Part shown: piece after piece, positions 1,175 to 13,960 of the stretch | Layout of the letters: every line of letters begins with the position of its first letter | How positions within the stretch are numbered: the stretch's first letter is position 1 | Assembly: GCA_024280095.1 (NCBI GenBank) | Contig: JAJRQU010000131.1 | Coordinates: 1-35,772, forward strand | Reading direction: 5' to 3' | Length of the DNA stretch: 35,772 nt | Source of the DNA: Alphaproteobacteria bacterium | Lineage (GTDB): Bacteria > Pseudomonadota > Alphaproteobacteria > Sphingomonadales > Emcibacteraceae | Program-made: the position numbers and the translations under genes | Notes under the pieces: generated by a model | What the model was told of the DNA's origin: nothing | Seen by the model: only the letters and a program-made list of their open reading frames with translations | Databases searched by the model: none

Positions 1175-1297
1175 GGCAGGCCCGAGGTTATTGGCAAGCT
1201 TCTTGGTCACTCACAGCCCCAAACAACCGCCCGCTATGCTCATCTGGATGCCAGCCCGGTCGGAGAAGCCACCAATCGAATAATCCCGGAACATTGA
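1175..1297 (+). pseudogene. tyrosine recombinase/phage integrase, 3' fragment
   Basis: The frame starting at 1175 reads GRPEVIGKLLGHSQPQTTAR followed by YAHLDASPVGEATNRI and a TGA at 1295-1297. This is the C-terminal end of a tyrosine recombinase: LLGH carries the conserved His of box II, and the Y of ARYAHL is the nucleophile. The upstream catalytic Arg and Lys are absent. The fragment lies directly between the aldo/keto reductase stub and the point where the opposite-strand DUF4198-like gene loses its own sequence (about 1280-1297). It is therefore the remnant of an integrated element now largely deleted. Confidence 0.8.
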
Positions 1298-1660
1298 GGC
1301 CGGAAGCGCGATATAATCCGGGTGGGCCGCAAGTCCGGCAAGTCCGGTGCCATTGGGCTGTGCCACAAGACCGATATAGGTGGCAAGCAATTTTGGGTTG
1401 TTATCAACGTCACGTACGTCGCCGCCTGCTTCCTCAGGGGTCATGCGCTTGCTGCCCATAACAATACTTATGTCACGGGACATTTTCTTGGTGATGGAAT
1501 AACCGCTCTTATAGTAAGTGCCGTTATACAAGGTTAGGAAATTATCCTTACCTGGCAACATATTATACAGGTCCGAAAACAAGTATGTCTGATGGGCATT
1601 TGCCGATGATGAGATCAAGGCTACGGCGCCAGCGATCATAGAGATGAGTAGTTTTTTCAT
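1211..1660 (-). CDS. DUF4198-like periplasmic protein, 3'-truncated
   Basis: A 149-residue frame with a clear signal peptide (KKLLISMIAGAVALISSSANA, with predicted cleavage just before His23) and a mature start HQTYLFSD typical of DUF4198-like periplasmic proteins found next to metal transporters. Family-like sequence continues to about residue 127 (PDYIALPASMFRDY). The last ~20 residues are antisense to the integrase fragment, so the native C-terminus has been replaced. It lies 41 bases downstream of the HupE/UreJ-like gene in the same direction, with AGAAAGAAG as a possible ribosome site. It probably served the same uptake system. Whether the shortened product folds is unknown. The family assignment is moderate. 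Confidence 0.55.
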   Translation of the reverse strand: MKKLLISMIAGAVALISSSANAHQTYLFSDLYNMLPGKDNFLTLYNGTYYKSGYSITKKMSRDISIVMGSKRMTPEEAGGDVRDVDNNPKLLATYIGLVAQPNGTGLAGLAAHPDYIALPASMFRDYSIGGFSDRAGIQMSIAGGCLGL

Positions 1661-1701: not shown

Positions 1702-2517
1702 TTAGTCATGGCGGGGCCTTTTAGGTAAGACTTCTCCCCCATATTCTGTCTGGCCCTGACTATTTTTGAGCATGGTGGCATGGGTGTGAGAATGATCATC
1801 CTTGCTGATGGGGAATTCTTCCCCGTAAGTAGTGTGCACAAACCCATGGAGTTGCATCAGGGCCAGCAACGCACCGATAACGATCAGTGAAACATTGGCC
1901 GCGCCGCTAAAGGCTTTGAAACTTTTTGTCGACCGCCAGAAATGAAGCACGATCCACATAATAACAAGTGCCGCGATCTGTCCAAGTTCGACGCCCACAT
2001 TAAACGAAATTATATGCATCAGCATGCCGGTGTCGGCATCAATCGGCAACGTTTGTAGACGCGTTGACAGGCCAAAACCGTGGATCAGGCCAAAGAGCAG
2101 AACCATCAGCAACAGGCTGGGGGCTTCCCGGTTTAAATATTTTTTAAAGCCATCCAGGTTTTCAAAGCCCTTATAGATAACGGTAAAGGCAATGATGGTA
2201 TCGATCAGATAATAATCCATGGTTATCTGAAGATACGTTGCTGAAATCAGGGTTATGGTGTGGCCAAGGGTGAAGGCGGTTACAAACTTTAGAATTGAGG
2301 TAAATCGGGTCAGAAAAAACATGACCCCAAACAGGAACAATAGGTGATCGTAACCTGTCACCATATGTTCTGCACCCAGAATTAGATATTGAAGGTCGCC
2401 GCCTTCAATCATTCTGCGTCGGGCCTCCTCCGTAATGCCGTGGGCAAAAGCCGACGAGTTGATGCCAGCAAATACGGCGGTGGTAAAAAAGAATAAAAAG
2501 AATTGTTTTAAACGCAT
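1702..2517 (-). CDS. HupE/UreJ family membrane protein
   Basis: 271 residues. A signal peptide (residues 1-25, ending SSAFAHG) is followed by six or so hydrophobic helices. The family pattern is visible: GAEHMVTGYDHLLFLFGV, then FTLGHTITL, then GLIHGFGLS, histidine-rich segments expected to line a metal path. The C-terminal tail is soluble and also His-rich (DDHSHTHAT). HupE/UreJ relatives are linked to nickel or cobalt entry, but members beside TonB receptors have no settled substrate. GGGAG eight bases before the ATG supports the start. It lies 62 bases after the reductase gene on the same strand and is probably co-transcribed with it. The family is confident, the transported ion is not. 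Confidence 0.8.
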   Translation of the reverse strand: MRLKQFFLFFFTTAVFAGINSSAFAHGITEEARRRMIEGGDLQYLILGAEHMVTGYDHLLFLFGVMFFLTRFTSILKFVTAFTLGHTITLISATYLQITMDYYLIDTIIAFTVIYKGFENLDGFKKYLNREAPSLLLMVLLFGLIHGFGLSTRLQTLPIDADTGMLMHIISFNVGVELGQIAALVIMWIVLHFWRSTKSFKAFSGAANVSLIVIGALLALMQLHGFVHTTYGEEFPISKDDHSHTHATMLKNSQGQTEYGGEVLPKRPRHD

Positions 2518-2579: not shown

Positions 2580-5081
2580 TTAAATCCCAAAATCGTCGAA
2601 CGAAATATTATTCTCTGGTATGCCAAGGTCATGCAGCATGGCTCTGGTCGCGGCCAGCATGGCTGGTGGGCCACAAAGATAAAACTCGCTATTGTTCAGG
2701 TCAGGATGATCTGACAGATAGTGCTTCATTGTAATCTTATGAATGAAACCTGTTGGGCCATCCCAGTTGTCTGTGTCTTTTGGCTCAGACAAGCCAATCT
2801 GAAACATCATATTTTTATGATTATTCATCAGGGATTCGAATTCTTCCTGATAGAAAATATCTTCCCTGTTTCTGACGCCGTACCAGAAACTGATTTTTCG
2901 GTCGGTTTTTTTATAGAGTAACTGGTCCCGGATGATTGCCCTGAGCGGCGCCATGCCGGCTCCGCCGCCAATAAGGATCATTTCCCGGTCACTGTCTTTA
3001 GCCGCAAAATGACCAAAGGGTCCGGACAGGGTAATTTTCTCTCCAACCTTGAGGCTGCACATATAACTCGACCCTATACCCACGGGAATATCCAGTTGGC
3101 CAACAGGAGCGGGCATCTGGCGGACATTCAAAACGATCTCTTGCGGATTTTCTTCAGAAGGTGTTGCCAGAGAATAGGCACGGCTTACTGTCATTTCATC
3201 GTCGGTGGGGATATCCACAAGCATATAACTGCCGGCCCGGTAGGAGAATATGTCGCTGGAGGGTATTTTCAGTGTTATTTCCTTGATATTCGGCGTGAGG
3301 AATTTGCTTGAGATAACTTCTGCCTGATAGGGCTTTTGAGATAAAATATCCTGCGGTATTTCCACAGCAATATCCTCAATCAGGCGGTGCTGACAGGATA
3401 AGCGGTAGCCTTCATCCAATTCTTTTTGCGAGAAATGATGCTGGTCTGCATCTAGAATGGGGGTATCGATATTGGTGAATTTAACCCGACACAGGCCGCA
3501 GGTGCCACCGCCGCCACAGCTTGAAGGCAAATGAATTCCTGCCTGAGCCAGGCTGTTGTAAACTGGCGTGCCTAATTCTGTTGCAAGCTTATTGTTCAAA
3601 CCACCATAGATATCGAGAACGGTTAGATTCAGGCTGGTTTTTCTACGCAATATTCTGTTCCAGGCTGCCTTGAATTCCGTAAGGGTAAAAGACTGAAACA
3701 GAAGGATGACGCCGCTGATAGCCAACCACAGCGAGAAAAAGCCAATAGCAATTATCCACGGGCTGTTGAAGTGAAGATTTCCGGGATAATCCATAAAATG
3801 AAGCATTATAAAAAAGTCAAATATCCGCCATGTATCATTACGACGTGCTACGATATGTCCGGTTTCAACCGATATATAAAGTGCTGTTTGCCGATTATCA
3901 TCAAAGTCAATTTTCCAGGCAGGGCCTTTTTCATCCGGTGTGTCGGATGTTGGCATCTGGACGGTCTGGGCATATAGGACTTTGGCGGATCCGCTATAAT
4001 CATTGACAGCGATCTTGCGGCTTGTTTTTTCATCGACAATAACGGGTTGATCCAATCTGGCATCAATAAGACGATCACCGTTCTTATCGGTAATCTGATA
4101 AACCAGTTGTCCATTTAAATTGCGTAGTGTTAGCTTTTGGAAGCTGTTGAGATCTTTCAGGTTAATAATATCTATAATCTCAGGCTGTGTGGCATCCGAA
4201 AAGAGTATCTGAGGGGCAAGGTGCCGTGACCTATCGTCGCCCTGTACGGTTTCATGATGCAATATGGACATGCCTAACCCGGTGGCACACCATATGATCA
4301 CTTGCAGGCCAATAATAAGGCCTAGCCATTTATGAATTGTTCTGAAGAACTGTCCCCTCAGAGAGGAAGAACTTGTTGTGACAGCTTGAGAGCGCTTGTT
4401 GTTGAAACTGTAAAATAATAACCATATACCGGTGAGGGCGGATAGGGTAACCAGGGTTGCCGCAATGCGCAATAGCCAATTATTGACGTCGGACCGGTCT
4501 TCATAGTCCATAATATGCAGCATCCAGAGAAAATCAAAAGCGCGCCAGAAATCATGGCGTTTGGCAATTAATTTTCCGGTTACCGGGGAAATATACAGTG
4601 TTGGCGAGGCCAGATCATGGAAATTTACCTGCCATAGGGGCAAGGGTCGGCTTTGAATTTCAGAGGGCGGATTATCTGTCAGCAACCGTATGGACAAAAT
4701 TGGTCCCGGACCGGCATAGAGCTTTTGAGCTATGGTCAGAATGGTCGTCTCTGGTAAGGGAGAAAGTTTCTGACCATCCCGGGCATCAACCAGATGAACA
4801 GTATTTGGGGTTTCTATTTCATAGACGGGATTATCGAGCAGACTTCCGGCTTCTATTTTTGTTGCCGTTGGAAATTTTTTTATCAAATCATTGATGTTAA
4901 CGGAATAAGAAGTTTGATCGGATGTTAAAGGTTTTTCAATATTCACGAGATGGTCGCCGTGAATATAGTCAATGGAAATGGTGACCATATAAAAGCCACT
5001 TAAAGCCCAGAGGAACATTTGTACACCAATGACCAGGAAGAGCCATTTATGCCATTTTCTTGAAAGAAAGGAAGCCTTCAT
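2580..5081 (-). CDS. duplicated PepSY-TM protein fused to an NqrF-like ferredoxin/FAD/NAD(H) reductase
   Basis: 833 residues from the ATG at 5081. A longer reading from a TTG at 5108 has no ribosome site, whereas GGTGAAG lies eight bases before 5081. Residue numbers here follow the longer frame. Two PepSY-TM units follow each other: KWHKWLFLVIGVQ (~19-31) to FWRAFDFLWMLHIMDY (~188-202), and IHKWLGLIIGLQ (~258-269) to TWRIFDFFIMLHFMDY (~426-441). A 2Fe-2S ferredoxin domain follows with Cys 531, 537, 540 and 572. Next come an FAD domain (RAYSLATP, ~643) and an NAD domain (GGGAGMAPLRAI, ~714; YLCGPPAM, ~810). The end, ENNISFDDFGI, resembles NqrF. The likely role is moving electrons from cytosolic NADH to a periplasmic or membrane acceptor such as a ferric chelate. 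The acceptor is inferred from the neighbours. Confidence 0.85.
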   Translation of the reverse strand: MKASFLSRKWHKWLFLVIGVQMFLWALSGFYMVTISIDYIHGDHLVNIEKPLTSDQTSYSVNINDLIKKFPTATKIEAGSLLDNPVYEIETPNTVHLVDARDGQKLSPLPETTILTIAQKLYAGPGPILSIRLLTDNPPSEIQSRPLPLWQVNFHDLASPTLYISPVTGKLIAKRHDFWRAFDFLWMLHIMDYEDRSDVNNWLLRIAATLVTLSALTGIWLLFYSFNNKRSQAVTTSSSSLRGQFFRTIHKWLGLIIGLQVIIWCATGLGMSILHHETVQGDDRSRHLAPQILFSDATQPEIIDIINLKDLNSFQKLTLRNLNGQLVYQITDKNGDRLIDARLDQPVIVDEKTSRKIAVNDYSGSAKVLYAQTVQMPTSDTPDEKGPAWKIDFDDNRQTALYISVETGHIVARRNDTWRIFDFFIMLHFMDYPGNLHFNSPWIIAIGFFSLWLAISGVILLFQSFTLTEFKAAWNRILRRKTSLNLTVLDIYGGLNNKLATELGTPVYNSLAQAGIHLPSSCGGGGTCGLCRVKFTNIDTPILDADQHHFSQKELDEGYRLSCQHRLIEDIAVEIPQDILSQKPYQAEVISSKFLTPNIKEITLKIPSSDIFSYRAGSYMLVDIPTDDEMTVSRAYSLATPSEENPQEIVLNVRQMPAPVGQLDIPVGIGSSYMCSLKVGEKITLSGPFGHFAAKDSDREMILIGGGAGMAPLRAIIRDQLLYKKTDRKISFWYGVRNREDIFYQEEFESLMNNHKNMMFQIGLSEPKDTDNWDGPTGFIHKITMKHYLSDHPDLNNSEFYLCGPPAMLAATRAMLHDLGIPENNISFDDFGI

Positions 5082-5130
5082 TACCGCATCTTCACCGTTA
5101 GGATACAAATATTATTGTGTGAAAATTAGT

Positions 5131-5175: not shown

Positions 5176-8100
5176 CTATTCCATACGATATGTCAGGCGA
5201 ATATACCCTCGACGCCCGGCCAGATCATAGGTCATGGTATCCGTGTTGCCATCTGTCCAACTGGCTACCCGTGGAGCCTTCTTGTCTAAGAGGTTGTCAA
5301 TACCGGCAGAAACAACCAGATTTTCCATCAGGTTATAAGTACCCTGGATATTGTGATACATCACAGCACCCATATAGGACCCGATACCATCGGTGGCAAA
5401 GAAGTCATTGCCGGAACCGATATACTGGATTGAATAAGTGGCAGACCAGTCTTCCGCAGCTGTATTAAAGCTTGTCAGGGCGCGCCAAGTTGGATAGCCG
5501 CCGAAGCCGGCTCCTATGAAACCATTGAGGACAAAAGGCGTATCACCAACAAACGCCGTCCTTTCGAAGGTATCAAGATAACTTACCTGAACGTCGATCG
5601 TGTTGTTCATTTCCATGGCTTCAAAGTTATAAACCACACCCACATCAACACCTTTGACACGTTCTGAACCTGCATTGGTTTTTTGGGCTGACAGGAAGTC
5701 AATAACGCCGGTTACAGGATTACGTTGTTGATGTTGCGGACCACAGAATTCATGAGACAGGTTATCTGATTCATAACATTGTAACAATTTCACTGATCCT
5801 GAAGGTTCCGTAATGGCGTTGGTGATTTTTATGTCAAAATAATCGACAGTCACTGACAGGCCATCAACAAATTCAGGCTGCCATACAGCACCAATGGTAA
5901 GTGTCTTGGCATCTTCAGGCTGGAGATCCGGATTACCACCACGGTCAGTCAGAATGGTATTCCCAAGCTGGACATATCCGTTGGGAACGCCAATAGCCTG
6001 ACAGTTCTTGTAGATATTGGAGTTTGGATCAAGACCGTTCCAGCCACTGCAAGGATCGCTGGTTGTCAACTGCCCTTCGGATACGCCGCCAAAAAGCTCT
6101 GGTACATTTGGAATACGGAAAGCAGTGGAATAAGTTCCGCGCAGTTTGAACCCATCGATAATCTGCCAGTTAACACCAATTTTGTAGTTTGTATCAGAAT
6201 CAAACTTGTCATAATCGGAATAACGTAACGCCAGATTAAGTTCCAGACTTTCGACAAAAGGAATACCTTCCAGAACCGGAATGCTCAGCTCGGCATAAGC
6301 TTCCTTGGCTTGGGTCTTGCCGAAGATTGGGTCTTCAGCATTTGAGTTGGCAATACCAAGAACTTTGAGAGAATCGGGTTGACGCCAGCCCTTGTCTTCC
6401 CGGTATTCAAGACCGGCAGCAAATCCAACCATGCCGGCAGGAAGCTCAAAAATGGAACCGGAAATATTGGCCGTGAAGCTCAACTGTTCATTGCCGCCCA
6501 GGTCTGTCATGTCAAATGGTAAGTAATCGAGTACTTCCTGACTGATGTTGCCCACACCCAGATAGTCCCCACAAGGGATGCCGTTTGTGCCACAAATGCT
6601 GGTGTCGATGGTTTCGGCGAAGCGTTCCAGGTTGACCACGTTAGTGATCGTATCTGAACCTGTATTGCGTCCCCAGTTCATGGCAATATCCCAGCCCCAG
6701 CCATCGCCAACTGTGCCGTCCAGTCCTGCAACTATCCGGAAGGTGTTGACTTCCTGTAAGAAAATTCGTTCGCCCAGTTCCACCAGACGGCGACGCTCAA
6801 ACGTCAGGTCTTCGCCAGTCGGGTTGGTTGGATGATCCGCTGCGATGTTAAAGTTACGGAGGGTATTTGGTGATGCCGGTTGTGTTGACCGACGGTTGGT
6901 ATACATCAATTCTCCAAACATACGCACATCATCGGTGATATTATAATGACCGAAAGAGCTGAATGACAGTCGCTTGATTGGGTTAACCGCGTTAAAGTTC
7001 ACATTGTAGTTATAGCCATGGATCGACGGGTCATAAAGTTCCCAGGTTTTTCCGCCCGGTTCATTGTTAAAGTTGATGCGCACCACTTCGCCCGCGCCAT
7101 CAATATAGACTGCCCGGCCACCTGCGGTACTGGAACTGCCTCTACATTCTGTTTCACTGGTTGAGGAGAGGGGGCAAGGTACCCGAGCAGCCAGAGGGGA
7201 TGGTTTGTTATCCTGATAGCTGATACTGGTGACCAGACTGCCACGGTCATTTGACGCGCCCCAGGTCAGGTCCATGAGATACTCTTCACCGTCTCCCTTA
7301 CCTGTCATGCCGAATTTAGCGCTGACTTCGAGGCCATTGAAATCGCTGTCTGTGATGATATTTACCACGCCGGCAACGGCATCCGCGCCGTAAATCGCTG
7401 AGGCACCATCTTTCAGGACTTCAACCTGTTTAACGATTGCCATGGGCACCATTGATAAATCGACGGAACTGTTGGCACCGGTGCCACCATTCACCATACG
7501 ACGGCCATTGAGCAGAACCAGGGTTCGGTTGATACCAAGGCCGCGCAGGTTGACCTGAGGCGTTCCCCAGCCGTTGCTGACCCAGTAAGCAGCGGTCTGA
7601 TTACCACCGAAGCCAGCGGAAGCAGGCATGCGCTGCAAAAGATTTTCCATGCTGGTAATACCTGTATTTTTGATCATCTGCCGTGTCATGATGGTAACTG
7701 GCCCAACGCCTGTCAGATCTTTGCGTTTAATCCGGCTACCTGTTACGACGACTTCTTCAAAAGGACTGTCTTCTGCAGAGCTTCTTTCTCCTTCAAAAGC
7801 AAGATTGCTTTCATAATGGGCAATATCTTCTGCATCAGCAGAAAGGCTAATATTTCTCATTAAAGGCGAATTGTTTGATTGAGGGGAGCGTATGATTATA
7901 GTACCGTCCCGTTGTTCAATCACTTCAAAGGCTGTATTTTGTAATAAATAAGATAAAGCTCTTTTAGCGGACATTTCACCCTGAATAGCAGGGGAAGTTT
8001 TACCCGCCAGGAGGTTAGACCTCACCGTAATCACGACATTGGTTTTCTTTGAAAATTGCATGAGTGCCTCTGCCAGAGGTAATTCCTGCAATTCAAATTT

Positions 8101-8217
8101 ATATATGTCAGAAGCCTGTGCATTCGCAAAGGCGGTACTGATTGCAATAATTGACGTTGCGCCTAATATTTTTGCGCTAGTGATTGCTTTTGATTTTAAA
8201 TTGTTCATGGATTTCAT
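5176..8217 (-). CDS. TonB-dependent receptor with N-terminal STN signalling domain
   Basis: 1013 residues. A signal peptide (~1-35, ending ANAQA) is followed by an STN domain (~39-111: FELQELPLAEALMQFSKKT to DGTIIIRSP), which marks transducing receptors that talk to a FecR-type anti-sigma. The TonB box is probably EEVVVTGSRI (~154-163). A plug domain (~165-285, with VNLRGLGINRTLVLLNGRR and ADAVAGVVNIIT) and a 22-strand-type barrel follow. It should import a ligand across the outer membrane using TonB energy. The final residues GYIRLTYRME end in Glu rather than the usual aromatic residue. GGGAG eight bases before the ATG supports the start. Regulation by the adjacent ECF sigma is indicated by the promoter element at 8272-8299. 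The substrate cannot be read from sequence. Metal chelate or haem is an inference. Confidence 0.93.
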   Translation of the reverse strand: MKSMNNLKSKAITSAKILGATSIIAISTAFANAQASDIYKFELQELPLAEALMQFSKKTNVVITVRSNLLAGKTSPAIQGEMSAKRALSYLLQNTAFEVIEQRDGTIIIRSPQSNNSPLMRNISLSADAEDIAHYESNLAFEGERSSAEDSPFEEVVVTGSRIKRKDLTGVGPVTIMTRQMIKNTGITSMENLLQRMPASAGFGGNQTAAYWVSNGWGTPQVNLRGLGINRTLVLLNGRRMVNGGTGANSSVDLSMVPMAIVKQVEVLKDGASAIYGADAVAGVVNIITDSDFNGLEVSAKFGMTGKGDGEEYLMDLTWGASNDRGSLVTSISYQDNKPSPLAARVPCPLSSTSETECRGSSSTAGGRAVYIDGAGEVVRINFNNEPGGKTWELYDPSIHGYNYNVNFNAVNPIKRLSFSSFGHYNITDDVRMFGELMYTNRRSTQPASPNTLRNFNIAADHPTNPTGEDLTFERRRLVELGERIFLQEVNTFRIVAGLDGTVGDGWGWDIAMNWGRNTGSDTITNVVNLERFAETIDTSICGTNGIPCGDYLGVGNISQEVLDYLPFDMTDLGGNEQLSFTANISGSIFELPAGMVGFAAGLEYREDKGWRQPDSLKVLGIANSNAEDPIFGKTQAKEAYAELSIPVLEGIPFVESLELNLALRYSDYDKFDSDTNYKIGVNWQIIDGFKLRGTYSTAFRIPNVPELFGGVSEGQLTTSDPCSGWNGLDPNSNIYKNCQAIGVPNGYVQLGNTILTDRGGNPDLQPEDAKTLTIGAVWQPEFVDGLSVTVDYFDIKITNAITEPSGSVKLLQCYESDNLSHEFCGPQHQQRNPVTGVIDFLSAQKTNAGSERVKGVDVGVVYNFEAMEMNNTIDVQVSYLDTFERTAFVGDTPFVLNGFIGAGFGGYPTWRALTSFNTAAEDWSATYSIQYIGSGNDFFATDGIGSYMGAVMYHNIQGTYNLMENLVVSAGIDNLLDKKAPRVASWTDGNTDTMTYDLAGRRGYIRLTYRME

Positions 8218-8271
8218 TAATGTCGCTCCCGTATCTATGGTGGTCAGATTTTTTCTGAACCCTATCTATGG

Positions 8272-8299
8272 GACGTGGGGTGTTCCAAAAATCGCACCC
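8272..8299 (-). promoter_or_regulatory. putative ECF-sigma promoter of the TonB receptor gene
   Basis: On the minus strand the element reads GGGTGCGATTTT (8299-8288), 12 bases, then CGTC (8275-8272). The same 12-mer, the same 12-base gap and the same CGTC occur upstream of the sigma gene at 10090-10117. CGTC is a familiar -10 core for ECF sigma factors, and the spacing suits a -35/-10 pair. It lies in the 122-bp gap between fecR and the receptor gene, 55 bases before the receptor ATG. The leader below it carries a small hairpin (TCAGA/TCTGA, 8244-8258). Confidence 0.7.
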
Positions 8300-8339
8300 C
8301 TTTTTTTGTATTTAATATGATAAAATTTCTATCTCATTG

Positions 8340-9395
8340 TTATTTATACCTTATTAGTCTTACATTTTGTCTTTTTTGTTTTCTTAGTGGCTTAATTATA
8401 ACATTTCCAGAATAGAGATATACCACATCGACTTCAAATATTTCAGGTAGAGTTTTAAGAAATATATCAATCTGGTCCACATCAAAGCTGGTGGTCACAT
8501 GGACATCCGCGAGACTATCATCCTCTAGTAATATATGTCCTGAATAATAACGATTGGCATCTGCAATGATATTGGCAAAGGTCTCGTTCTTGTAGGCAAG
8601 TCTGCCTCCTCTCCAGGCACCGGGTTTTATCTGTGCGATTGTAATGTCGTTCTTAAACCCGGATTCTGCAGTCGATACTATTTGGCCCGCAACCAGAACT
8701 TTGGTATGGGAAGTTTCTGTTTCAAATTTCTTGGGCGTTACCTGAACTCGCCCCTCCAATACACCAACGGTCATGCCTTGTGGTCCTAAATGTACGTCAA
8801 ATTTGGTACCTAAAACACGAATTGTAGTATCCTGTGCCTTGACATAAAAAGGTTTCTCAGGGTTTCTAGCCACATCAAAAAAGGCTTGGCCTTGTTCCAA
8901 TGATACATTTCGTCGGTCATCTGTATAGAGTACTTCCAGACGAGACATGGCCCCCAAGGTAACTATGCTACCATCTGCAAGTGTGATTTCCTGTACCTCT
9001 GATGTGGTTGTCTGATAAACTTCAGGGGTAAATGTCGGGGGTTGTTGCATAAAAAACATAATCCCTAAAATGGCTGTAATAGAAGCAAGTGCATATTGTG
9101 GCAAACTCAGCCTTTGTTTAACGGCCTGAATGAAACCGGTAAAGATATTCTCTTTTTGCACTCTTTCATCCGCAGATCGCCTAAGGTTTTCTCCCTGTGG
9201 GGAACGGGCCAACACACCTAGTTCATTCCATATCTGACTGATGCCCGCATAGGCTTCCCCATGCTCCGGGTTTTCATCCCGCCATGCTACAAAGGCTTCA
9301 ATATCTGAATCGGTAGCTTTATCAGACATGATTGTCATGAGCCATTCATGGGCTGTTTTCTCAATCTGACTATGGTTGTTGTTGAGCATATTCAT
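8340..9395 (-). CDS. FecR-family anti-sigma/sigma regulator
   Basis: 351 residues. A cytoplasmic N-terminal DUF4880-type helical region that should bind the sigma factor (AHEWLMTIMSDKATDSDI to HGEAYAGISQIWNEL, ~15-59) is followed by one membrane helix (~99-117) and the periplasmic FecR domain (~127-225: EITLADGSIVTLGAMSRLEV, RNVSLEQGQAFFDVARN, FYVKAQDTTIRVLGTKFDV). A C-terminal segment should contact the receptor's STN domain. It carries the surface signal to the ECF sigma encoded just upstream. The ATG overlaps the sigma stop as ATGA (9392-9395), so the pair is translationally coupled. Confidence 0.93.
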   Translation of the reverse strand: MNMLNNNHSQIEKTAHEWLMTIMSDKATDSDIEAFVAWRDENPEHGEAYAGISQIWNELGVLARSPQGENLRRSADERVQKENIFTGFIQAVKQRLSLPQYALASITAILGIMFFMQQPPTFTPEVYQTTTSEVQEITLADGSIVTLGAMSRLEVLYTDDRRNVSLEQGQAFFDVARNPEKPFYVKAQDTTIRVLGTKFDVHLGPQGMTVGVLEGRVQVTPKKFETETSHTKVLVAGQIVSTAESGFKNDITIAQIKPGAWRGGRLAYKNETFANIIADANRYYSGHILLEDDSLADVHVTTSFDVDQIDIFLKTLPEIFEVDVVYLYSGNVIIKPLRKQKRQNVRLIRYK

Positions 9396-10000
9396 CTGTT
9401 TAACTCCGACTTTTCAGTCTTTAATCCTGCCCGTTTCAAGGCCTTGTTGAAATCTGTCAGGGCTTTCATTACATGCTTTCTAACCGCTGATTGCGACAGA
9501 CCCGATTGGCGCGAAATCTCTGCATATGTTAGTCCATCAAACCTATTTAGTACCAACATGCGCCTTCGTTTTACCGGCATATCCCACATTACCCGCTCTA
9601 AAAGAGCCAACCTCTCTCTGGTTATCAGGATACGTTCAGGATGGATATCATCATGTTCCCGGTCAGGGTTATTGTTTCTTTGCTCTACCATATGCCGTCT
9701 GCGTGTTGCAGCTTTGCGATGATGGCTTACCACCATGTTATGGGCAGACCGATACAAAAAAGCACGCGGATTTTCTATTTCAGCAGAATTATCCAGAGCG
9801 GCATAATTGGTAAATACGGCTTGCGCTATATCCTCTGGATCGGGCGGGCCACTTCCAAAGGTACTGTTTACATATTTACAGATATCATCCCAAAAGCGAC
9901 TGTATAATTTACTCAGGCTTTCATATTTTCCTGATTTCGTCGAATTTTGTGCAGGACTTTCATACGGGAAAGCCTTAATTCCTTCGATGTTTATATCCAT
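9392..10000 (-). CDS. FecI-like ECF RNA polymerase sigma factor
   Basis: 202 residues with the two ECF sigma domains. Region 2 is about residues 25-95 (LYSRFWDDICKYV, DPEDIAQAVFTNYA, ENPRAFLYRSAHNMV). Region 4 is about 130-190 (MPVKRRRMLVLNRFDGLTYA, EISRQSGLSQSAVRKHVMKA, a helix-turn-helix that reads the -35). AAGGTGAG eight bases before the ATG supports the start. It is the first gene of the sigma-FecR pair and controls the receptor locus by family precedent. Its own upstream DNA carries the same bipartite element as the receptor promoter, which suggests autoregulation. Confidence 0.93.
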   Translation of the reverse strand: MDINIEGIKAFPYESPAQNSTKSGKYESLSKLYSRFWDDICKYVNSTFGSGPPDPEDIAQAVFTNYAALDNSAEIENPRAFLYRSAHNMVVSHHRKAATRRRHMVEQRNNNPDREHDDIHPERILITRERLALLERVMWDMPVKRRRMLVLNRFDGLTYAEISRQSGLSQSAVRKHVMKALTDFNKALKRAGLKTEKSELNR

Positions 10001-10089
10001 GTAAAATACTCACCTTTACAGATTTCCATATCCTGACCAACCGCAGCTTTGGACATTTGGCCAACAGGCATAACTACCTTAACTATTAA

Positions 10090-10117
10090 GACGCGCAAGG
10101 CATATAAAATCGCACCC
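10090..10117 (-). promoter_or_regulatory. putative autoregulated ECF-sigma promoter
   Basis: The minus strand reads GGGTGCGATTTT (10117-10106), a 12-base spacer, then CGTC (10093-10090), 89 bases before the sigma start codon. All 16 specified bases and the spacer length match the element before the TonB receptor gene. The spacers themselves differ, so this is not simply a duplicated segment. Confidence 0.68.
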
Positions 10118-10264
10118 ATAAAAAGATATTTATAGTCAGAATAACAAAATGATTTCAACAACTATAGCTGATTTTTGATGGTTTGCTGAAATTCTATGGC
10201 TTCCTTTCAGTGACAAAAGGACTTATGATAGTACAAAATATAAATTTATCGGGACGGAATTTTA

Positions 10265-10963
10265 GTGAAAAGAATATATGTTTTTATTCCTTTTCTACTG
10301 CTTGTATTTCTAATCAACCCAGTTTCTGCTGATGAGACATACTGGACAGAAAAAAAACTGGGAAAGGTTATATTAAAGGCAGATAAGGCAGCCCGTCAGA
10401 AAAAATGGGCCCGTGCGATTATGTATGGTGAACAGATGCTTGAAGGCTGTAAAGCCCTTGATAAACAGATTAATGCCAGATATATTAATCAGCTAAAAAA
10501 CCTCAATTATTATTATGATAAAGCAAACCGTCTGAAAGAAATTCCTTCCCGGATTAGCGAAGCATATAACTTGTCCCAAAAATATTTAGGCCCCGTAAAT
10601 AACACAACCATATTGAGCCGTAATCTTTATTACAAACTCCTCATATTAGACAGAGAATATTATCAGGCTATTGACCTGATTCTAGAATCTATCTCCATTT
10701 TAAGGGAAAATGAAGATGATAAATTCAAAGTGCATGGACATTTGAAATCGCTTTATTCTCTTTATGGACTGACAGGACAACTTGAGCTGGAAGAAAAGAC
10801 CCTTCTTCAATTCATAAAACTGAATGGAGAATTAGTGGGCAAAGACGACGATAATATCTTCGGGGTGATTGTCATTCTTGCTAAAAATTACTGTCGTCAG
10901 AAAAAGCTGGAAAGATTTGCACAATTGATAGATTTCCATGGCCTGAAGTATACCTGCAAGTAA
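10265..10963 (+). CDS. predicted secreted helical-repeat protein, unknown function
   Basis: 232 residues starting at a GTG (the nearby ATG is out of frame), with GGGACGG as a plausible ribosome site. The first 22 residues (KRIYVFIPFLLLVFLINPVSA) form a signal peptide. The remainder is strongly helical and rich in Lys, Leu and Tyr, with spacing such as QKKWARAIMYGEQMLEGCKA, YYQAIDLILESISIL and QLELEEKTLLQFIKL that resembles tetratricopeptide repeats without a clean consensus. It is transcribed away from the sigma gene across a 264-bp gap. I see no copy of the ECF element facing it. I do not recognise a family. Exported, possibly TPR-like, is all that can be said. Confidence 0.6.
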   Translation: MKRIYVFIPFLLLVFLINPVSADETYWTEKKLGKVILKADKAARQKKWARAIMYGEQMLEGCKALDKQINARYINQLKNLNYYYDKANRLKEIPSRISEAYNLSQKYLGPVNNTTILSRNLYYKLLILDREYYQAIDLILESISILRENEDDKFKVHGHLKSLYSLYGLTGQLELEEKTLLQFIKLNGELVGKDDDNIFGVIVILAKNYCRQKKLERFAQLIDFHGLKYTCK

Positions 10964-11525: not shown

Positions 11526-13960
11526 TTACTTTTTCTGCTTTTCCCAAAGAGGGAGTAATTCTCGTACACTATAACCAAGGCTATTATATCCTGTCATGCG
11601 TTTGTTACTCATACGGTTCAGGACGGGAACCTGTCGATCCATATAGTCATATATTCGTACTTCAGTTTTGTGATGATGCGTGCGGTGCAAACGCCCTGCA
11701 TATTGTGCTAACGTCCCTTTCCATGAAATCGGCATAGCAAGGAAGAGGGTATCTAACCGGGCATCGTCAAAACCTTCTCCAATATAGCCACCGGTAGCTA
11801 TTAATACACGATCTTCATCATCCTTGATATTTTTAAGATTTTCCAGCATCTCTCTATGTGCTTTTACGCTCATGCCACCCTGAAGAATAATAACATGTGC
11901 TGAAACATCTTTCAGGCATTTGGCAAAATAGGCCACATGTTCTTTACGTTCGGTAAGAATAATCGGAGAGCGCTTTTCCTTCAAAACCTCCAAAACATCG
12001 CCCAAAATCATCTGGTTACGCTTTTCATCTTTAACCAATTCTGCATAGACCGTATGGATGGGAGGGTTCTGATATTGTTCTATAATGCTCGCCGTGAGGT
12101 GAAATTCCGTATAACGCGGAATAACATAATGTTCGAAAGGGCGTTTCCCCGCTTGAGTTTTGGCATCCACATGGTAGCGAACAGGACCACATTGCATGAA
12201 GATGATCGGATGCTGGCCATCTTTACGTATAGGGGTTGCTGTTAATCCCAAAACATACTTGGCTTTACATTGCCGCGCGACAGCTTCAAAGCTCACCGCA
12301 GAAATATGATGACATTCATCAATAATCAACTGCCCATAATCTGCGACGCAATCATCAACCTCACCTTTACGCACAAGACTTTGAATCAGCGCCACATCAA
12401 TCTGCCCGGAAAGTTTACGTTTGCCGCCGCCAATTTTTCCGATGGTAATATGATCCATATTCAGGAAGGCCTGCAATCGTTCTATCCATTAATCAAGTAA
12501 CTGCTTACGGTGTACAAGAATAAGCGTGTTGCGCTTACGTTTGGCAATAATATGAGCGGCAATCACCGTTTTTCCAAATCCAGTTGCGGCGGAAAATACG
12601 CCAGCGTCATATTTAAGTAAAGCTTTTACGGCTGGTTTTTGTTCCTTTTTGAGACTGCCTAAAAATTTTGTCCGTAGTGGCTTTCCTGTGTTTCTCTCAT
12701 CTAAAATATTGGGGATTATATTAACGCTGGCCAATAATTCATTTACCTCATCAAGACAACCTCTTGGTAGCCCAATATGCTGAGGGAAATTCTCTGCACA
12801 GGCAATAATGCGCGGCTTATCAAAAACTGGAAATCGCATTGCCTGCATCCGGTAAAATTCCGGGTTCTGAAAAGCTGCCACACGAATAAGACGATTGATG
12901 AGCCTCGGCGGCAAACCTTCCTTGGGGATATAAAGTTGATTGCCGTAAATGATATCAACAGAAGCGGGTAGCGGTTCTGAAATTTCCAAGGGTTTTACTT
13001 TGCGTGATGGTGTAGCCTTCCATGGTTCATTTGCATCTTCGTCATCAATAGCCATCCGCACCCCTGTTACACGGCCACGGCTTATTGCCTCACTAACAAT
13101 GATCATCACCTCTTCGGACGACATCCGCTGCACTGATGATAGCAAGTTCCATTGATCCTGATGAGGTTCGAAATTCTCATCCAGAAAAACACTATTTCCA
13201 TTTTGGCGAGGGCGATACTGCAGGGGCAATGCAATCAAATTACCAAATCCTCCGGACGGCATCCTGTCCTGATTGGGGAAAAGACGGTCATATGACTCAA
13301 ATCCAATACCAGGGTAATGCTCCATGGTTTCCGTGAGCAGGTATGAACCAAGCTTTCTGGCATCAGATGCAAGAACGGGTTCTTGAAAGAAAATCCATAC
13401 ATGCCCGCCATTTCCCGACCGCGAACGTTCCAAATAAGCGGGTACTTTTTGCTTATCGCAAGTTTGCAAAAAAGCAGTGACATCTTCTTTCCACCCTGCT
13501 TTGTCAAAATCCGCCGCCAAAAACCAACAAGTCTCATCAAATAGCAATGGATAGGTACCGAGCGTATAATCTTTCTTCTTACTCCCATGCTGGCCTGTCA
13601 GATGTTGACGCAACATCTCGTCCGTAACAGGCAGAAACGCCTGATGTTGGCAATCACTACTTTGACCTTTGGTTTACCACAGATGCCGCGCACCCATTCA
13701 TTGCCGCAAGCGGGGCTATACCCTGCCTTGCCCGTCTTCTGATTTTCCCAACGTTTTGGATGCACATCCTCCCTTCCCCGGAAAAGACTGCTGAATATGG
13801 CTATTTTCTCTGAAGGAGAAAAAACAGGAGAAGACTCTAACTGTTCTATAGACGGTTGCTCAATTTCGATCCGATCCAAACGCGCAAGTAAAGTCGCGCG
13901 TTCCTTATCAAGGACATGTAAACGTTGTTTGATTTGGTTTGCTTCAGAATTGCCCTTCAT
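11526..13960 (-). pseudogene. TOTE-type primase-helicase (AEP plus SF2 helicase), broken by one frameshift and one nonsense codon
   Basis: Read across two lesions, this is one protein of about 810 residues. The N-terminus is a coiled segment (~1-45), then PSEKIAIFSSLFRGREDVHP and KTGKAGYSPACGNEW, a zinc-binding region, the archaeo-eukaryotic primase core (CWFLAADFDKAGW with its D-x-D; RSRSGNGGHVWIFF), and an SF2 helicase with Walker A ATGFGKT, the box IDECHH and the motif QYAGRLHR. Lesion 1 is near 13645: a base is missing after KVK, and restoring it gives SDCQHQAFLPVTDEM in frame, so a zinc-ligand Cys codon is damaged. Lesion 2 is TAA at 12489-12491 between HRKQLLD and WIERLQAF, where CAA (Gln) is expected. 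The C-terminus looks complete. Relatives are called TOTE conflict-system primases, a proposed defence or conflict function. Confidence 0.8.

Follow-up and report, generated by a model that had tools for sequence, protein, structure and literature searches.

Does the FecI-like sigma factor encoded here act on its own gene? The question is raised by one bipartite sequence element standing both ahead of the sigma gene and ahead of its TonB-dependent receptor gene in the window, i.e., the whole stretch of 35,772 nucleotides that was analysed. A sequence-only reading of this DNA had noted that E. coli FecI is not usually described as autoregulated, and the literature agrees: in E. coli, sigma70 transcribes fecIR under Fur control and there is no autoregulation (PMC9249621), and FecI-like ECFs are named in reviews as the exception to ECF autoregulation (PMC8103513; PMC9249621). 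For HemI the absence of autoregulation was measured (PMC12772443), while self-induction of VreI was described as unusual (PMC2729926). Since FecI-like sigmas are the stock exception, their target promoters could not be deduced from the sequences ahead of their own genes.

The genes of the locus lie on the minus strand in the order sigma, fecR, TonB receptor, PepSY_TM/FAD/NAD reductase, HupE/UreJ_2 protein and 149-aa protein, with one divergent neighbour:

10265 to 10963, plus strand: 232-aa, probably exported all-helical protein, divergent, a recurrent neighbour of FecI-FecR loci
9392 to 10000, minus strand: FecI-like ECF sigma factor, 202 aa (Sigma70_r4_2, Sigma70_ECF; sigma70-ECF superfamily; FecI family below cut-off)
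8340 to 9395, minus strand: FecR-like sigma regulator, 351 aa (DUF4880, FecR, FecR_C), its start overlapping the sigma stop
5176 to 8217, minus strand: TonB-dependent receptor/transducer, 1013 aa (N-terminal STN, Plug, barrel), orthologues found
7774 to 8103, minus strand: STN and linker of the receptor, residues 39-148, the putative exchangeable signalling part, with the junction at the TonB box
2580 to 5108, minus strand: PepSY_TM / FAD-NAD reductase (Pfam), presumed receptor-operon cargo, adjoining the receptor in G004, G006, G010 and G017
1702 to 2517, minus strand: HupE/UreJ_2 family membrane protein (Pfam), presumed cargo, kept in G004
1211 to 1660, minus strand: 149-aa protein, presumed cargo, no Pfam match, with a 91% identical stretch within a DUF4198 protein of G004

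The sigma factor consists of regions 2 and 4 only. The FecR protein carries the DUF4880 anti-sigma end, the FecR domain and a C-terminal surface-signalling domain (FecR_C slightly under cut-off), and its periplasmic part gives a PDB match to the signalling domain of PupR (6ovk). The STN match of the receptor, 28.0 bits, lies just below the Pfam gathering cut-off of 28.4 and is accompanied by plug and barrel. By domains and gene order the locus belongs to the FecI-FecR-FecA kind, and its cargo genes suggest reductive uptake of a metal or metallophore. A small helicase-like protein (ResIII/Helicase_C, RadD-like) is encoded at 11526-12476 on the minus strand.

Three short features are predicted in the two gaps:

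10090 to 10117, minus strand: predicted ECF promoter P-sigma, GGGTGCGATTTT at 10117-10106, N12, CGTC -10 at 10093-10090; exact match, kept in L037 and G004/L039
8272 to 8299, minus strand: predicted ECF promoter P-receptor, GGGTGCGATTTT at 8299-8288, N12, CGTC -10 at 8275-8272; exact match
8239 to 8262, minus strand: small stem-loop in the leader expected for the receptor mRNA; three genomes yield the prediction, with z from -1.4 to -2.3

The sequence-only reading had claimed two identical minus-strand elements, alike in 16 bases and in spacer length but with different spacers, as a match very unlikely by chance. When the window was searched for GGGTGCGATTTT-N10-14-CGTC, exact GGGTGCGATTTT-N12-CGTC was returned at 8299-8272 and 10117-10090 and nowhere else, and the same pattern had no matches in 100 dinucleotide shuffles of the window, so both parts of the claim stood. 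The spacers, TGGAACACCCCA in the 8299-8272 copy and ATATGCCTTGCG in the 10117-10090 copy, are alike at only 2/12 positions and the flanks at chance level, which excludes recent copying of one gap. The pattern was admittedly chosen after the sequence was read, a point in favour of chance or of a recently duplicated intergenic stretch. Against either stand the empty shuffles, the dissimilar spacers, the unmatched flanks and the retention of the element in orthologues, and we regard this explanation as extremely improbable.

The start codons of the sigma and receptor genes lie 48-90 nt downstream of their elements. Set against sister systems, the -35 core comes out as approximately GTGCGAT, roughly 16 nt ahead of CGTC, and the TTTT of the motif first proposed is conserved sequence that extends into the spacer. 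The predicted leader stem-loop closely follows the predicted start in the window, L039 and L040, and the pairs of its outer stem covary (GGG/CC, GUG/CGC, GGC/GCC); no Rfam families were found in 7900-10400.

A scan of the genome and its relatives for the element had also been proposed by the earlier reading. The element was kept in the orthologous loci, but no third strict match to TGCGATTTT-N11-13-CGTC was found anywhere in the host assembly, a 2.63 Mb draft in 221 contigs. When one mismatch was allowed in a genome-wide hunt for targets, the counts were at the background level of the reversed control, and therefore only the strict element is informative. The one promising match, in G012, was rejected as an extra target, being inside coding sequence.

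Only four genomes have close orthologues, and in all of them the receptor-gap element is kept, in the form GCGATTTT-N12-CGTC in L037, G004 and G012. Identity of the sigma factor to that of the window is 91% in L037, 78% in G004 (= L038/L039) and 76.5% in G012 (L040). The sigma gap is off the contig of G012, which begins inside sigma; in the three readable genomes, L037 and G004 among them, the sigma-gap element is kept in every case with the same spacing. In G004 GGGTGCGATTTTATAT is retained in this gap while most of the downstream leader has diverged. Across divergent orthologues the sigma-gap copy is as strictly conserved as the receptor-gap copy. The more distant orthologue G112 (sigma 60%) had no clear copy, only a CTTTT...GTGTCTT-like sequence.

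This conservation bears on the reading in which only the receptor promoter works and the sigma copy is a relic or weak, sigma-fecR being transcribed, like fecIR of E. coli, from a housekeeping promoter. Such a reading fits the reports of non-autoregulated FecI-like systems (PMC8103513, PMC9249621, PMC12772443), and a candidate TTGAAA-N18-TATAAA lies just upstream (10158-10129), although a sigma70 promoter and terminator scan of the region was not above shuffles. The equally strict conservation of both copies and the recurrence of doubled elements at other loci speak against it, and we consider it unlikely.

The recurrence was assessed on sigma-FecR-receptor loci gathered from relatives, of which 126 were usable in the order (the grouping as given for the relatives) and 29 came from the phylum at large. 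For each locus the 12-mer ahead of CGTC in the sigma gap was compared with that in the receptor gap; pairings of gaps across different loci served as the null. Agreement of at least 9/12 was found in 18 of the 126 loci of the order versus 0.61 expected, of at least 8/12 in 25 (2.3 expected), and of 12/12 in three (0.02 expected). At the 9/12 level none of the 29 phylum-at-large loci, a small sample, agreed (0.32 expected). Reciprocal unique best pairs numbered 7, versus 0.18 in permutations (permutation maximum 2). Scores from CGT only, at thresholds 7-8, were noisy, and CGTC with the 9-of-12 threshold is therefore quoted. Three of the 18 passing loci are orthologues (L003, L008, L037), and the rest are different systems from several families. 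The genome of the window itself has a second doubled locus, the paralogous L006, with TGTCCCG-N16-CGTCTTCT in both gaps. About 80% of the loci of the order fail the test, so autoregulation there is either not universal or not detectable. Part of this order-wide pattern may already be tabulated in large ECF classification papers.

The -35s of the passing loci usually begin 22-24 nt ahead of CGT and are specific to each system (TGTCCC, GGTACCCG, TGGAGGG, TGGCCAG, CTGTCGG, GGTACCCGA, TGGCCAGTTT, ATTCCCA, ATTAGGGG and others). The same -35 goes with nearly the same sigma recognition helix, for example TGGAGGG with SVSTVEKYI and GGTACCCG with GISDNMVKKY, an association uncorrected for shared ancestry. 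This joint variation of -35 and local helix argues against a different shared regulator (a Fur/Irr-type repressor, an activator or another ECF sigma) that would bind the element and give co-regulation without autoregulation. Sequence by itself cannot name the binding protein, and Fur co-represses many iron-starvation sigma systems (PMC9249621). Yet the element is non-palindromic, ends in an ECF -10 at ECF spacing and has no other genomic copy, and Fur-like boxes were above shuffles in neither gap; another regulator is, in our judgement, very unlikely.

We therefore return to the sigma factor of the locus. Both elements are very probably promoters read by this FecI-like sigma, with sigma-fecR and the receptor operon as its two targets, a reading supported by their position, the ECF geometry with its CGTC -10, the conservation in orthologues and the order-wide excess. 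With the same promoter element ahead of the sigma gene and the receptor gene, the sigma probably amplifies itself. Direct action at the elements and feedback switching are what we infer from these patterns. In the proposed scheme, a ligand would bind the receptor, the STN domain would signal to FecR, and FecR would then release or activate the sigma. Sigma-RNA polymerase would transcribe the receptor/reductase/HupE operon as well as sigma-fecR, so that receptor, sigma and FecR would rise together in a positive autoregulation that co-expressed FecR would keep in check. The low basal level of sigma would have to be supplied by a separate promoter, for which the sequence at 10158-10129 is a candidate.

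The receptor itself, unexpectedly, is modular: its STN is joined at the TonB box to a receptor which three relatives have without STN. In G010, G017 and G006 the same receptor is found without STN and with the reductase (identity 78-83% in the barrel, 89-91% in the plug); neither sigma nor fecR was present in the flanking DNA read beside these receptors, and the element was absent from the 300 nt read upstream. In G012 sigma, FecR, promoter, leader and STN (79% identical) correspond to those of the window, and past the TonB box the receptor continues with an unrelated plug and barrel. DNA identity between G012 and the window is 85% up to about codon 140 and 43% beyond it. From the TonB box on, the G012 receptor shares 62-80% identity with a paralogue of its own at C77, the STN of which is only 26% identical to that of the chimeric receptor. 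The C77 locus has a doubled element of its own, TGATGGA...TTCGTC. The G012 receptor is thus a chimera, with STN from one surface-signalling system and plug and barrel from a paralogue (L040 1779-4430, L323 3831-6477). Downstream of the swapped receptor (L040 4531-10409) come three beta-lactamase-family/DUF3471 hydrolases and a DUF819 protein, presumably under the same sigma. The arrangements in G010, G017, G006 and G012 thus show promoter and STN remaining with sigma and FecR when the receptor is swapped.

The 232-aa divergent protein (possibly TPR-like) had no Pfam match, and its structure model from three sequences was poor (pLDDT 47). Over a dozen FecI-like loci have a homologue divergent from the sigma ORF and 50-250 nt away from it; in L243, L248, L270, L281, L289 and L316 the homologue shares the strand of sigma and lies about 1.2 kb past it, apparently behind fecR. 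We take the protein to be an unnamed recurrent partner of FecI-like loci.

A broader view, which we hold tentatively as possible rather than probable, is that many FecI-like sigmas of the order activate themselves, each through a -35 code of its own; that a sigma-fecR-promoter-leader-STN cassette captures receptors at the TonB box, taking the promoter along; and that the helical exported protein is an undescribed extra component. If many alphaproteobacterial FecI-like loci do self-activate, their promoter specificities and regulons would be readable from sequence, orthogonal sigma/promoter pairs could be gathered in large numbers, and in these bacteria surface signalling should act as a positive-feedback switch and not as a Fur-gated relay. 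The swap of domains at the TonB box illustrates how nature can point a sensing module towards new nutrients. An order-wide departure from the textbook rule, together with a module of promoter plus STN, would be of interest beyond one locus.

Among known systems, E. coli FecI-FecR-FecA is alike in having a sigma and fecR operon followed by an operon for an STN-type TonB receptor with its own sigma-dependent promoter. The E. coli subtype has a Fur-controlled sigma-fecR pair free of the receptor's ECF element, whereas the sigma operon of the window bears this element, at 10117-10090, without a detectable Fur box. Serratia marcescens HasI-HasS-HasR also repeats a sigma-specific -35, TTTACGGGTTT, ahead of hasS and hasR (PMC9249621), but in that system hasI is not activated, only hasS, the anti-sigma gene, while the element of the window precedes the sigma gene itself. 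Pseudomonas PupI-PupR-PupB and FpvI-FpvR-FpvA share the FecR-type regulator (the 6ovk match) and the STN transducer receptor; unlike the reading given here, their regulators are of a class for which activation of the regulator's own gene is denied (PMC9249621). RpoE-type ECFs are alike in positive autoregulation through a promoter with a CGT -10, and differ in lacking FecR/TonB receptor control and in their AAC-type -35 (PMC8103513). As in autoregulated ECFs, the window has the same motif, kept in orthologues, ahead of both the sigma operon and its probable target, and in the control of its sigma operon the locus appears to depart from the FecI/FecR/FecA kind.
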